Shown: one piece after another, positions 52,330 to 57,764 of the stretch | How positions within the stretch are numbered: position 1 is the stretch's first letter | Layout of the letters: each line of letters starts with the position of its first letter | Assembly: GCF_004136555.1 (NCBI RefSeq) | Contig: NZ_NOIT01000018.1 | Span: 1 to 64,000, forward strand | Source of the DNA: Kocuria carniphila | GTDB taxonomy: Bacteria > Actinomycetota > Actinomycetes > Actinomycetales > Micrococcaceae | DNA length: 64,000 nt | Reading direction: 5' to 3' | Notes under the pieces: model-generated | What the model was told of the DNA's origin: nothing | The model's input: only the letters and a program-made list of their open reading frames with translations | Database searches by the model: none | Position numbers and translations under genes: made by a program

Positions 52330-53415
52330 GTGTCCGAACACCCCATTCGCGTGGCCATTGCAGGTGTGGGCAACTGTGCCACATCGCTCATTCAGGGCGT
52401 GCACTTCTACCGCGACGCCGACCCCTCCGAGGCCGTCCCCGGCCTGATGCACGTGCAGTTCGGTGCTTACCACGTGCGTGATGTCGAATTCGTGGCGGCC
52501 TTCGACGTGGACGCGGCCAAGGTGGGCCGGGACCTCTCCGACGCGATCCTGGCATCCGAGAACAACACCATGAAGATCGCGGACGTCCCCAACCTGGGCG
52601 TGACCGTGCAGCGCGGCCCCACCCTGGATGGCCTGGGCGAGTACTACCGCGAAATGATCACCGAGTCGGATGCAGAACCGGTGGACGTCGCTCAGGCGCT
52701 GCGTGACGCCAAGGTGGACGTGCTCGTCTCCTACTTGCCCGTGGGCTCCGAGGACGCTGACCGGTACTACGCGCAGGCCGCCATCGACGCCGGCGTAGCC
52801 TTCGTCAACGCACTGCCCGTGTTCATTGCGGGCACCGAGGAGTGGGCACAGAAGTTCCGCGACGCCGGTGTTCCCATCGTGGGCGACGACATCAAGTCTC
52901 AGGTGGGCGCCACCATCACCCACCGCGTGCTGGCCAAATTGCTCGAGGACCGCGGCTACGTGCTGGACCGCACCTACCAGCTCAACGTGGGCGGCAACAT
53001 GGACTTCAAGAACATGTTGGAGCGCTCCCGTTTGGAGTCCAAGAAGATCTCCAAGACCCAGGCCGTGACCTCCAACGTGCCGCACGAGATGCGCGCGAAA
53101 GACGTTCACATCGGCCCCTCGGACTACGTGGGCTGGCTGGACGACCGCAAGTTCGCGTTCGTGCGCCTCGAAGGTCACGGCTTCGGCAATGCACCCATCT
53201 CCTTGGAGTACAAGCTCGAGGTGTGGGACTCCCCGAACTCCGCCGGCGTGATCATCGACGCCATCCGCGCGGCCAAGATCGGCCTGGACCGCGGCATCGG
53301 CGGCCCGCTGACCTCGGCGTCCTCGTACTTCATGAAGTCCCCGCCCGAGCAGTTCGATGACGACACCGCTCGCGAGAACGTCGAGAAGTTCATCCGCGGC
53401 GAGATCGAGCGCTAA
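52330..53415 (+). CDS. ino1: myo-Inositol-1-phosphate synthase
   Basis: Converts glucose-6-phosphate to L-myo-inositol-1-phosphate (1D-Ins-3-P), precursor of mycothiol and phosphatidylinositol; 361 aa, the actinobacterial length. NAD-binding [13 protein letters not shown] at residues 10-22, then [25 protein letters not shown] and [12 protein letters not shown], all conserved. GTG 52330 follows AGGAGA. It converges on the phosphatase and mshA genes, which use its product; a 20-bp terminator lies between. Confidence 0.96.
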
Positions 53416-53432: not shown

Positions 53433-53476
53433 CGGCGGCGCCCGGTACCGAAGCATTTCGGTACCGGGCGCCGCCG
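53433..53476. terminator. Terminator between ino1 and the phosphatase gene
   Basis: The arm 53433-53452 pairs perfectly with 53457-53476 (CGGCGGCGCCCGGTACCGAA and complement), loop GCAT: 20 bp. Works for both convergent units. Confidence 0.88.
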
Positions 53477-53556: not shown

Positions 53557-54354
53557 CTATCGCCGGTCCTGCCCCGCCAAACCGGCGCGGGAAATGATGT
53601 AGTCGACCAGCGGATTGTAGAGGTGCGGGGCCACGTTGTCGTCCAGGGGAACGGTGACCTCCACGTCACCCTGGGCCTCGGCCACGAAGATACCGGGGTC
53701 GTTGCAGTCGCCCATGGCGATGGTGCGTAGTTTGGCCCGCGAACCCGCGTAACCGGCCATGCCGTGGTCGGAAACGACAAGGTCCGGCTGCTCGCGACCC
53801 TCTGCGGCCAACTGCTCCAGAACCAGTTTCATAGGCTCGGGGGAGTGTGTGTGTCGCAGACCGCCGTACTGCTCGACCATCACGACATCCTCTACCTGCC
53901 GCACGTCACCGTCCTCGAACGGGATGGCACCGTCCACCCGCAGCACACGGGCACCGGACTTGCGGGCAACTCGGGCGAGCCGGGCGTAGACGGGTGCGAG
54001 CCCGGCGGGGTGTGCCGTGGCGAACAACAAGCGTTTGCGGCCCTTGACGGCCTCACTGAAAACATCCGCGTACTTGTCGAGCGCGGCAATGCACAGGTTG
54101 GCGGAAATGGAGTCCTGGCCCTCCGTGTACTTGGGGTCCTCATTGATGCCTACGCGATCACGCATGAGCTTGAACACGGACTTGTAGGTCCAGTCCTTGG
54201 TCTGTTCGACGCCCATGTGCTGGTGCTGGTCGCCATCCAGGAAACCCTGGATGTTACGGAGGTTGGCTTCACGGGGGGTCGCTACGGCGCCGGTGATCCG
54301 GGATCGATCCAGATACCTGGCCAACGATTCACGGCTGAGATACGCGGTGGTCAC
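53557..54354 (-). CDS. PF15698-type phosphatase next to mshA; candidate GlcNAc-inositol phosphate phosphatase
   Basis: 265 aa. It begins VTTAYLSRESLARYLDRSRI and carries TPREANLRNIQGFLDGD, GHRLLFATAHP-like FATAHPAGLAP, THSPEPMKLVLEQL, VSDHGMAGYAG and MGDCNDPGIFVAEAQG; I recognise these as the actinobacterial 'phosphatase' family (PF15698), whose substrate is to my knowledge unassigned. GTG at 54354; the open frame extends upstream into mshA but without family similarity. It follows mshA by 10 nt on the same strand and faces ino1. TAGACT 7 nt before the GTG (complement 54362-54367) adds a possible own leaderless promoter. Assignment to mycothiol step MshA2 is inference from context. Confidence 0.8.
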   Translation of the reverse strand: MTTAYLSRESLARYLDRSRITGAVATPREANLRNIQGFLDGDQHQHMGVEQTKDWTYKSVFKLMRDRVGINEDPKYTEGQDSISANLCIAALDKYADVFSEAVKGRKRLLFATAHPAGLAPVYARLARVARKSGARVLRVDGAIPFEDGDVRQVEDVVMVEQYGGLRHTHSPEPMKLVLEQLAAEGREQPDLVVSDHGMAGYAGSRAKLRTIAMGDCNDPGIFVAEAQGDVEVTVPLDDNVAPHLYNPLVDYIISRAGLAGQDRR

Positions 54355-54364
54355 ACTCTCGAGT

Positions 54365-55666
54365 CTAGGTGTTAACGGGCTCGGCCGCGCAGCGTGTGTA
54401 AGCCACCTCATGTTGGGCGGCCACATGGTCCCATGTGAGTTCGCGCGCCCGCTCCGCCGCAGCCTGGGACATGGCCCGCCAGTGCTCAGGGTTCGACGCC
54501 GCTCGGTACAGCGCCTCCGCCCACAGTTCCGGGGTGCGCCCGGGCACCAACCATCCGGTGCGATGGTCCTCCACTGCGTAGCGCAGCCCGTCCACGTCGG
54601 TGGCCAGAACCGGCGTTCCGCATGCCTGGGCCTCCAGAGCCACCAGACCGAAGGTCTCGGACGAGGACGGCATGGCCACCGCATCCACGGAACGCATCAA
54701 CTCGGCCAGTTCGGATGACGGCATGGAGCCTTGGAACTCGATGACGTCCGCCACGTCGTATTCGGCGACCAACCGATGCAACGCCGCCAGAAAATCTGGG
54801 GAGCCCACCCCCGCAAGGATCAGCCTGATCGCGCAGTCGGGGTGCTCGTGGCGCAACAGTCCCATGGCGGCCACCAGAATCTGCGGACCCTTGAGTGGCT
54901 GCATGCGACCCGCGCACAACACGGTGAACGGCCGCCCCGCCGCACGGGCAGAAGAAGACGGAGCAATCGAGGCGATCGACGTGACGGAAGGCTCACCGGA
55001 ATCATCAGCGGAGGCGGTCTGCGCTCTTGGGTAGAAGATTTCCGGATCCACCCCCGGAGGAATCACACGAATCCGGTCCCGGGAGGCCCCGTAGAGCTCC
55101 ACCATGTGATCGGCCTCGGCGGGTGTGTTGACCACCAGGGTGCAGGAGCTGGCCACGAGCTCCCGTTCGGCAAGCTCGCGGGACGCGGGTTCCGGATTCT
55201 CGCCCGGCCCGGCGCGCAGGTTCTTCACCGCCGCAGAGGTGTGCAGCGTGAGCATCTGGGGGATCTTGAGAGCCTCACAGATTTCACGGGCCGCCACCCC
55301 GGACAGCCAATAATGGGCGTGGACGAGGAGGGGAGCGTCGTCGTCGTCGTCGTAAAAAGTGGCGAGCGCGCGGCCGAACTCGACCGCGAACTCGGGGAGC
55401 TGTTCCTTGGGTGCACTGGCCGCCCCGGGAAGCGCCACCGAGAGCAAGCGGAGACCATTGGACAGAGGAGCCACCGTGATGCCCGCGGGATGCAAAGGAT
55501 CCCGGTCGAGAGTGGCCATGTCCACGTCCCAACCGCGCTGGGACAGCGAACGGGCCAGGTGCAGAACGTACACGTTCATGCCGCCGGCGTCGCCGGAGCC
55601 GGGCTGGTCCACGGGCGAGGTGTGCATGCTCACGAGCAGCACGCGCGGCGGGGTCTGTTGGGGCAC
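54365..55666 (-). CDS. mshA: D-inositol-3-phosphate glycosyltransferase MshA
   Basis: Transfers GlcNAc from UDP-GlcNAc to inositol-3-phosphate, first committed step of mycothiol synthesis; GT4 family, GT-B fold, 433 aa. Diagnostic SMHTSPVDQPGSGDAGGMNVYVLHL (residues 13-37), HAHYWLSGVA, VIPPGVDPEIFYP (201-213), GRMQPLKGPQI and the ETFGLVALEAQACGTPV donor-site motif. A run of five Asp (106-110) and a Ser/Ala-rich linker (about 215-245) between the two lobes are unusual. GTG 55666 has TAGGCT 6 nt upstream (complement 55673-55678), so the mRNA should be leaderless. The phosphatase gene follows by 10 nt. Confidence 0.92.
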   Translation of the reverse strand: MPQQTPPRVLLVSMHTSPVDQPGSGDAGGMNVYVLHLARSLSQRGWDVDMATLDRDPLHPAGITVAPLSNGLRLLSVALPGAASAPKEQLPEFAVEFGRALATFYDDDDDAPLLVHAHYWLSGVAAREICEALKIPQMLTLHTSAAVKNLRAGPGENPEPASRELAERELVASSCTLVVNTPAEADHMVELYGASRDRIRVIPPGVDPEIFYPRAQTASADDSGEPSVTSIASIAPSSSARAAGRPFTVLCAGRMQPLKGPQILVAAMGLLRHEHPDCAIRLILAGVGSPDFLAALHRLVAEYDVADVIEFQGSMPSSELAELMRSVDAVAMPSSSETFGLVALEAQACGTPVLATDVDGLRYAVEDHRTGWLVPGRTPELWAEALYRAASNPEHWRAMSQAAAERARELTWDHVAAQHEVAYTRCAAEPVNT

Positions 55667-55754
55667 CAGACCAGCCTAGCGGGAAGCGCCGCGGCACAGT
55701 GCAGTAATGGTGGTCAGGCGCGCGGCGGCGCGCGGAACAGGCACAATGGAGGGC
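55667..55754. promoter_or_regulatory. Divergent mshA/alr promoter region
   Basis: 88 bp between divergent start codons. Reverse -10 TAGGCT (complement 55673-55678) is 6 nt from the mshA GTG; forward CACAAT (55742-55747) is 7 nt from the alr GTG, with GGAGGG in between. Both predict leaderless or nearly leaderless messages. Confidence 0.5.
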
Positions 55755-57764
55755 GTGAGCGTAACAACGTCGTGGCAGTCCGAAGAACCCAGCGAGCGCA
55801 GCGCGGTCATCGACCTCTCGGCCGTGTGGCACAACGTGGTCCGATTAACGCAGTTGGCGCGCGGACGAAAATTGATCGCCGTGGTCAAGGCGGACGCCTA
55901 CGGCCATGGTGCCCCGGAGGTGGCCCGCACCGCGCTCTCAGCGGGAGCGGATCTGTTGGGCACCGCGCACGTGAGTGAGGCACTCGCGTTGCGCTACGCA
56001 GGGATCACCGCACCCGTGCTCTCGTGGCTGCACACCACGAGCACCGACTTCTTTGACGCACTGGAACACAACGTGTCCCTGGGGATCAGCGGTTGGGAGC
56101 TCGACGCCGTGCTCACCGCCGCCCGTGAGACCGGTAAGACGGCCACACTGCACCTCAAGATCGACACCGGTCTGGGCCGCAACGGCTCCACCGCCGGGCA
56201 ATGGCCGGAGCTGGTGGAGCGGGTAGTGGCCGCCCAGAACGAGGGTCTGGTCCATGTGGAGGGCATCTTCACGCACCTGTCCGTGGCGGACGAACCTGCC
56301 CGCGGTGACGAGACCATGGAGCAGCTCAACGCCCTGACCGATGCCGTGCGGATCGCGCGCAAGGCCGGCCTGAAACCCGCCATGATCCACGCCGCCAACA
56401 CGCCCGCACTGTTGTCCGCGGATCAGCTCGAGGACCCCGACTACATCCTGCGCGACGCCGTGCGCATCGGTCTGGGCATCTACGGACTGAGCCCGTTCGA
56501 GGACCGCCCGCCCAAGGATTTCGGTTTGATTCCCGCCATGACCCTGCGCACGCGCGTGGCCAACGTCAAGGCCGTCCCCACTGGTCAGGGCGTCTCCTAC
56601 GGACTCACCTACCGCACCGAGGGCCCCACGCACCTCGCGCTCATCCCGCTGGGCTATGCCGACGGCGTTCCCCGCGTTGCGACCGGAGCACCCGTCTACA
56701 TCGGTGGCCGGGTTTACCCCGTGGTCGGCCGCATTGCCATGGACCAGTGCGTGATCGACCTGGCGCAGGGCCAGACCGTGACACCCGAGGGCATCCCCGC
56801 CGGAACCCCCGTGGTGGACGAAGCCGTGGATCCCATGGTGCACATCGGGGACGAGGCCGTGCTCTTCGGCGCTGGTGACTACCCGTCAGCGACCGAGTGG
56901 GCGGACGCTTCTGGAAGCATCAACTACGAGATCGTCACGCGGGTGTCCCCGCGCGTGCCCCGTGAGTACACGAGCCACAGCCATCTGACTCTGGGGGACG
57001 TGACCGTGTCTCGCAGTGCCAGCGCCTTGGCCGCCCACAGTCTGCCGCAGGACCCGCGGCCCACGCGTGATTCCTCCGGGGAGTCCTACACCCAGCCGAA
57101 CTGGACACTGACCCGCTATCCGTCCTCCGCGGAAGAAACCCAGCTGATCGCGCAGAAACTTGCCACGCACCTGAAGGCCGGGGACCTGCTCATGCTCAAC
57201 GGCGAACTGGGCGCAGGCAAGACGACGTTCACACAGGGGCTCGGAGCGGGAATGGGTGTGCGCGAGGGCATCATTTCGCCCACGTTCGTTCTGTCCCGCA
57301 AGCACCCGAATCTGCCGGCAGGTCCCAACCCCGGTGGACCGGATCTCGTGCACGTGGATGCCTACCGTTTGGACACCTCAGCGGACATCGACAACATCGA
57401 CCTCGAGGACACGGTGGAGTCCAGCGTGACCGTGGTCGAGTGGGGTACCGGCAAGGTGGAGCACCTGAGCGAATCGCGCCTGGTCATCGACATCGTGCGA
57501 CCCCGGGGAGCGGTGGGAGCGCCGTCGGCGGCCTTTTCCCTGAACTACGAGATCAACCAGAGCGCGGGCGAGACGGAACAGTCCGGCGCTGGTGCCCAGG
57601 GACCGGGCGAGAGCTCCGCGGCGGCCGAGGAGTCCCAGTCCCTCGCGAGCGCTCTCGATGCCCTCAACGAGGAATGGGATGAGGACGAGGAAGACACGGA
57701 TGAGCCGCGCACCATCATCATGCGCGGCTACGGTCCCCGCTGGTTCGAGCGTCTGGACCTCTGA
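55755..57764 (+). CDS. alr-tsaE: Fusion of alanine racemase and TsaE (tRNA t6A ATPase)
   Basis: 669 aa in one uninterrupted frame. Residues 1 to about 395 are alanine racemase: PLP lysine K45 in AVVKADAYGHG, VSYGLTY, GYADGVPR and the catalytic-Tyr region; it supplies D-alanine for peptidoglycan. From about residue 445 the TsaE ATPase of the t6A complex: P-loop GELGAGKTT (483-491), SPTFVLSRKH, VHVDAYRLD and VEWGTGKVE. After about 590 a Glu/Asp/Ser-rich tail ends in RGYGPRWFERLDL. GTG 55755 starts the family N-terminus. tsaB, rimI, tsaD follow, so the fusion keeps the usual alr-tsaE-tsaB-rimI-tsaD order. Confidence 0.93.
   Translation: MSVTTSWQSEEPSERSAVIDLSAVWHNVVRLTQLARGRKLIAVVKADAYGHGAPEVARTALSAGADLLGTAHVSEALALRYAGITAPVLSWLHTTSTDFFDALEHNVSLGISGWELDAVLTAARETGKTATLHLKIDTGLGRNGSTAGQWPELVERVVAAQNEGLVHVEGIFTHLSVADEPARGDETMEQLNALTDAVRIARKAGLKPAMIHAANTPALLSADQLEDPDYILRDAVRIGLGIYGLSPFEDRPPKDFGLIPAMTLRTRVANVKAVPTGQGVSYGLTYRTEGPTHLALIPLGYADGVPRVATGAPVYIGGRVYPVVGRIAMDQCVIDLAQGQTVTPEGIPAGTPVVDEAVDPMVHIGDEAVLFGAGDYPSATEWADASGSINYEIVTRVSPRVPREYTSHSHLTLGDVTVSRSASALAAHSLPQDPRPTRDSSGESYTQPNWTLTRYPSSAEETQLIAQKLATHLKAGDLLMLNGELGAGKTTFTQGLGAGMGVREGIISPTFVLSRKHPNLPAGPNPGGPDLVHVDAYRLDTSADIDNIDLEDTVESSVTVVEWGTGKVEHLSESRLVIDIVRPRGAVGAPSAAFSLNYEINQSAGETEQSGAGAQGPGESSAAAEESQSLASALDALNEEWDEDEEDTDEPRTIIMRGYGPRWFERLDL

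Follow-up and report, generated by a model that had tools for sequence, protein, structure and literature searches.

Mycothiol is a protective thiol, and mshA is the first gene in its synthesis. In the scheme followed here, MshA would make N-acetylglucosaminyl-inositol-3-phosphate (GlcNAc-Ins-3-P), from which a predicted phosphatase, MshA2, would remove the phosphate ahead of MshB. In the passages available, this dephosphorylation is attributed to "an unidentified phosphatase" (PMC7278568), and the predicted phosphatase of the pathway is described as missing, with ImpC proposed in M. tuberculosis (PMC2834668). ImpC/HisN belongs, with SuhB, ImpA and CysQ, to the inositol monophosphatase (IMPase) family PF00459, the family associated with inositol-phosphate dephosphorylation. 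Other passages list mshA2 among genes (PMC10893638; PMC4360819) or name the enzyme MshA2 (PMC9736012; PMC10826361; PMC7924645; PMC2628429); the name there denotes an activity, and these passages give neither locus nor proof. Titles and abstract openings in the open-access literature searched likewise assign no gene to the step. Here we describe a gene of the PF15698 family that directly follows an MshA-type gene in a 64,000-nt stretch of Kocuria carniphila (NZ_NOIT01000018.1, positions 1 to 64,000; hereafter the window). The most economical reading is that this gene encodes a lineage-specific MshA2, a credible candidacy to which we give a probability of about 0.5.

The features of the locus are as follows.

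54365..55666, minus strand: divergent MshA-type glycosyltransferase (GT4), 433 aa, GTG start; TIGR03449 E 1.5e-98; 3c48 E 3e-74; inositol phosphate (Ins-P)-site columns kept
53557..54354, minus strand: PF15698 "Phosphatase" family protein, 265 aa, GTG start at 54354; Pfam E 1.3e-95
53433..53476, no strand assigned: perfect 20-nt inverted repeat, 4-nt loop, lying between ino1 and the pair
52330..53415, plus strand: ino1, inositol-3-phosphate synthase, convergent; TIGR03450 673.9 bits against a cut-off of 638

The mshA stop and the PF15698 start are 10 nt apart on the same strand (TAG-ACTCGAGAGT-GTG), and the pair converges on ino1, 141 nt away. Reading the open reading frames (ORFs) confirmed the coordinates, sizes, spacing and orientation given by an earlier, sequence-only reading of the window. 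Ino1 is a member of its equivalog by the curated TIGR03450 cut-off, and MshC is encoded elsewhere in the same genome with a score above cut-off. The window PF15698 protein is 94-96% identical to those of the nearest named Kocuria relatives.

Compared with described MshA proteins (TIGR03449; C. glutamicum structures 3c48, 3c4q and 3c4v), the partner is similar over nearly its full length, with residues 2-426 of 433 aligning with 3c48. It scores 330.3 bits on TIGR03449, below the curated equivalog cut-off of 462.5, and is therefore described here as divergent and MshA-like, not as an equivalog member. It is the top TIGR03449 match of its genome by 200 bits (18 matches; runner-up at 127.6 bits). 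The residues contacting the Ins-P phosphate, which we take to be K78, Y110, T134 and R154 of C. glutamicum MshA, correspond to K, Y, T and R in 11/11 paired MshA rows, the window's included, in an alignment of 31 sequences; three paralogue rows share the K and the R, with F replacing Y and A replacing T. The pair also occurs in two sister genera, labelled g147 and g148. In g147 the partner is MshA, both paired glycosyltransferases scoring above the same cut-off (481 and 478 bits); those of g148 fall under it, as in the window (298-355 bits). The window protein is thus probably a divergent MshA, judged by its sequence. The mshA call of the sequence-only reading stands as to best genome match and conserved Ins-P columns, but not as to equivalog membership.

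Conservation of the pair was assessed at 19 loci, 14 from named Kocuria and five from g147 and g148 (three genera). A glycosyltransferase of the MshA kind lies directly upstream of PF15698 on the same strand at every one of them (14/14 Kocuria, 5/5 in the sister genera), with one Kocuria locus, L114, showing only the mshA end at a contig edge. In that K. atrinae draft contig the PF15698 frame is interrupted (L114:198-991, 157 aa open), by assembly error or decay. In the family sample, PF15698 was found in 6/15 genomes and is paired with mshA in all six; taking MshC over cut-off as the stand-in for mycothiol, as throughout, all six paired genomes are positive.

The neighbourhood of ino1 suggests a different role, in which PF15698 acts on Ins-3-P or a phosphatidylinositol phosphate and supplies free inositol or phosphatidylinositol, its location reflecting shared inositol-phosphate metabolism. 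Convergent ino1 lies beside the pair in 10/14 Kocuria and 2/2 g147 loci, as this role would predict. However, the pair is kept without flanking ino1 in the remaining 7/19 loci (ino1 is flanking in 12/19 overall, and in 0/3 of g148), and the three g148 genomes, G245, G315 and G380, gave no Ino1 match at all despite an MshA-like protein, PF15698 and MshC over cut-off. The PF15698 gene therefore follows mshA rather than ino1. Moreover, mshA lies beside ino1 also in family members that lack PF15698 (7/9 loci), and we regard action on Ins-3-P or a phosphatidylinositol phosphate as unlikely. In seven of these nine unpaired genomes mshA is followed by a formate-tetrahydrofolate (THF) ligase gene, with convergent ino1 at the same locus in six of the seven; in another (L307), mshA and ino1 converge directly. 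No alternative phosphatase was seen in the PF15698 slot of the unpaired relatives, the ligase occupying it in 7/9. The Kocuria loci whose pair has no flanking ino1 are L107, L108, L111 and L112 (K. salsicia, K. varians, a metagenome-assembled genome and K. rosea). At L312 (G008:C1), a second ino1 adjoins a GT223-like ORF with an MshA match split in two, perhaps a decayed second mshA.

Both g147 loci have the order mshA, PF15698, formate-THF ligase and then convergent ino1. In the MshA tree, g147 groups with the unpaired genera, and Kocuria and g148 stand apart. A single clade of all paired MshA rows was rejected (p-AU 0.0035) in a test that was prompted by this tree and left out two long rows; PF15698 therefore follows mshA in two MshA lineages. 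The rejection also speaks against deriving the pair only once, through common inheritance of mshA. The two genes may have been joined twice, or the pair may be old and have been lost several times. The PF15698 trees group Kocuria, g147 and g148 with modest support (92/56; 95/63), and the PF15698 data are compatible with other placements of g147 (p-AU 0.31 and 0.13). In these trees the label of L102 (Kocuria sp. cx-455) reads Korobacteraceae, Acidobacteriota, probably through a name-parsing slip. The linkage to mshA that the sequence-only reading saw in one genome thus recurs, at 19/19 loci in three genera and two MshA lineages.

This recurrence bears on the idea that PF15698 is a phosphatase of other or broad specificity, with a house-cleaning or regulatory role, placed after mshA by inherited accident or co-regulation and sharing no pathway with it. 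In Kocuria and g148 synteny extends past the pair, to an alanine racemase gene upstream, and the family is widespread in other neighbourhoods without linkage to mshA (in f59 and f4, as two groups outside the family are labelled here, and deep in the phylum), both as such an accident would predict. Against this, the pair is kept in g147 despite a different upstream gene (in the annotated locus, G230) and the other MshA lineage, and in four loci of the K. rosea group the mshA stop and PF15698 start have 4 nt in common. We consider an unrelated or broad specificity improbable.

The IMPase complement of the same genomes favours a lineage-specific MshA2. In the family sample, the six paired genomes have 2, 3, 1, 1, 1 and 1 PF00459 genes, and the nine unpaired ones have 3, 3, 4, 3, 3, 2, 3, 3 and 3. 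In an IMPase tree of 86 sequences (36/36 family-sample matches and 50/84 matches from a further search that covered the f59 genomes), G301, G245, G315 and G380 each have their single copy within the HisN clade, that of G245 on a long branch and with the motif absent from its open part. Two of these four sole IMPases were searched against solved structures, and the best match of both was the histidinol-phosphatase 5yht (8e-94 and 1e-44), presumably the structure of ImpC (Rv3137). HisN is thus the only IMPase-family gene in 4/6 paired and 0/9 unpaired family genomes (Fisher 0.011), and all nine unpaired genomes keep a SuhB-type gene. It is this lack of non-HisN IMPases in four of the six paired genomes that argues for PF15698 as the lineage's MshA2. 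The same lack would equally deprive Ins-P of a phosphatase, as expected if the PF15698 enzyme acted there. G301 combines all the elements: mshA, mshC and ino1 over their cut-offs, HisN as the only IMPase, and PF15698 after mshA.

The protein itself belongs clearly to PF15698 (319.9 bits against a gathering cut-off of 28.4; profile positions 1-256 of 256). Unlike the IMPases it has no PF00459 match, PF15698 being its sole match at E values up to 1. An AlphaFold2 model was obtained with pLDDT 90.9 and pTM 0.91. Among 26 diverse PF15698 sequences, 18 positions are invariant, including H116, H169, H171, D197, H198, D217, D220, D239 and D240 (numbering follows a 266-residue reading and runs one higher than in the GTG-started protein). 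Of these nine His/Asp residues, seven coincide with the end of a predicted strand in the model or follow it by no more than four residues, and the nine may form a metal-site-like set. These residues, together with the Pfam name, suggest that the protein is a phosphatase. The name might instead be a misnomer, the protein acting in some other way on the MshA product or on MshA; in view of the nine residues and their position near strand ends, we consider this very unlikely. No sequence match to solved structures was found for the single protein, and those for the PF15698 alignment were at E 0.087 and worse. In a structural comparison of the model, the 50 entries shown were all ribosome, S2 or laminin-receptor entries, and enzyme families were not represented. 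Three titles (1vi5, 1vi6 and 4toi) name S2; the assignment of the remaining entries to S2 is our interpretation. These S2-type matches exclude no enzyme family.

Beyond the family, PF15698 occurs within the set of MshC-positive genomes up to the level of the class. In the order sample (198 genomes), PF15698 was over cut-off in 20, with one more below, and MshC in 140, which include all 20 (hypergeometric p 6e-4); in the class sample (394 genomes), the 111 genomes with PF15698 are all among the 353 with MshC and 0/41 MshC-negative genomes carry it (hypergeometric p 5e-7), both p values ignoring ancestry. In the phylum sample (197 genomes), PF15698 was over cut-off in 51, eight of them among the 18 MshC-positive genomes. 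A wider PF15698 tree places 19/20 added class rows and all Kocuria, sister-genus, f59 and f4 rows on one side (100/99), and the eight deep phylum rows kept plus one class row on the other.

Several observations weigh against PF15698 as MshA2. SuhB-type IMPases are also kept by the window's genome (G000) and by G230, so PF15698 is not the sole candidate in Kocuria and G230, and the IMPase losses amount to about two independent events, since three of the four genomes belong to one genus. The g148 genomes lack an Ino1 match that would account for their Ins-P. The f59 genomes have PF15698 together with HisN (14/14) and a SuhB-side gene (13/14, leaving aside a second IMPase in G381); a general anticorrelation between PF15698 and IMPases was not found. 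PF15698 is absent from 242/353 MshC-positive class genomes, and 43/51 PF15698-positive phylum genomes have no MshC over cut-off, nine of these 43 having intermediate MshC-like scores (382-426 bits). No MshA-type glycosyltransferase was found near PF15698 in 47/47 other class loci (14 f59, 13 f4 and 20 others), with flanks of 1.0 to 8 kb per side covered. "Phosphatase" is a Pfam label: we found no biochemical evidence for such activity in the literature or among solved structures, and "PF15698" itself is not mentioned in the open-access literature searched.

The absence from 242/353 MshC-positive class genomes means that PF15698 is not a universal MshA2; the distribution rules out an enzyme present in every mycothiol producer. 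What holds of the candidacy put forward in the sequence-only reading is its lineage-specific form, in which the pair is conserved and non-HisN IMPases are missing in four of six paired genomes, and not its general form. The family is widespread outside mycothiol producers at the level of the phylum (43/51) but not within the class (111/111 MshC-positive); the same reading had named such a spread, in combination with a lack of mshA linkage elsewhere, as grounds for rejection, and the linkage does recur. A broader proposal would make the actinomycete PF15698 clade (Kocuria, the sister genera, f59, both f4 copies and most other class members) the MshA2 of roughly one mycothiol producer in three (111/353 of those sampled), a metal-dependent enzyme unrelated to IMPases and with an S2-like core, with other producers using another enzyme; we hold this to be doubtful.

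The neighbourhoods of PF15698 outside the family were uninformative as to function. Judged tentatively by size and gene content, f59 (g155) may be Brevibacterium-like and f4 (g6) Streptomyces-like; of the sister genera, g148 is possibly Rothia. In f59 the gene is mostly flanked by SpoU-methylase genes on one side and tRNA-editing/L31/thiD-type genes on the other. Deep phylum loci (L054-L080) are often near genes for histone-deacetylase-like, HTH_17 (BldC-like HTH), CLP1_P, SAM-HAT, epimerase and acyltransferase proteins, and 5/27 have, at a distance of roughly 4-8 kb from PF15698, a GT4 gene with 32-36% identity to that of the window. One f4 copy (L041-L051) shares the first two of these neighbours (histone-deacetylase-like and BldC-like HTH) and is near an ECF sigma factor gene and a DUF5667 gene.

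At the Kocuria carniphila locus, the inverted repeat around which ino1 and the pair converge is perhaps a shared terminator; a consensus scan found no terminator-like or promoter-like match in this gap or at the mshA/PF15698 junction, and does not list the repeat. Divergent from mshA, at 55707-57764 on the plus strand, alanine racemase and TsaE are fused in one 685-aa ORF. The corresponding ORFs of this cluster are 661-1104 aa in eight other Kocuria loci and 418-436 aa in three K. rosea group loci, and in g148 they are 405-437 aa with a separate piece of 189-211 aa.

As lineage-specific MshA2, the PF15698 enzyme would remove the phosphate of GlcNAc-Ins-3-P ahead of MshB in Kocuria and the two sister genera, with GlcNAc-Ins-P as its predicted substrate. 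It would then be a recruited, non-orthologous solution, and in producers that lack PF15698 the step would have to fall to a different phosphatase, perhaps an IMPase. The link of this gene to mshA, found also in some genomes without the usual suspects, makes the open step of mycothiol synthesis directly testable. The prediction is that evolution has solved the MshA2 step in more than one way, and this could be the reason that co-occurrence over all producers has singled out no gene.
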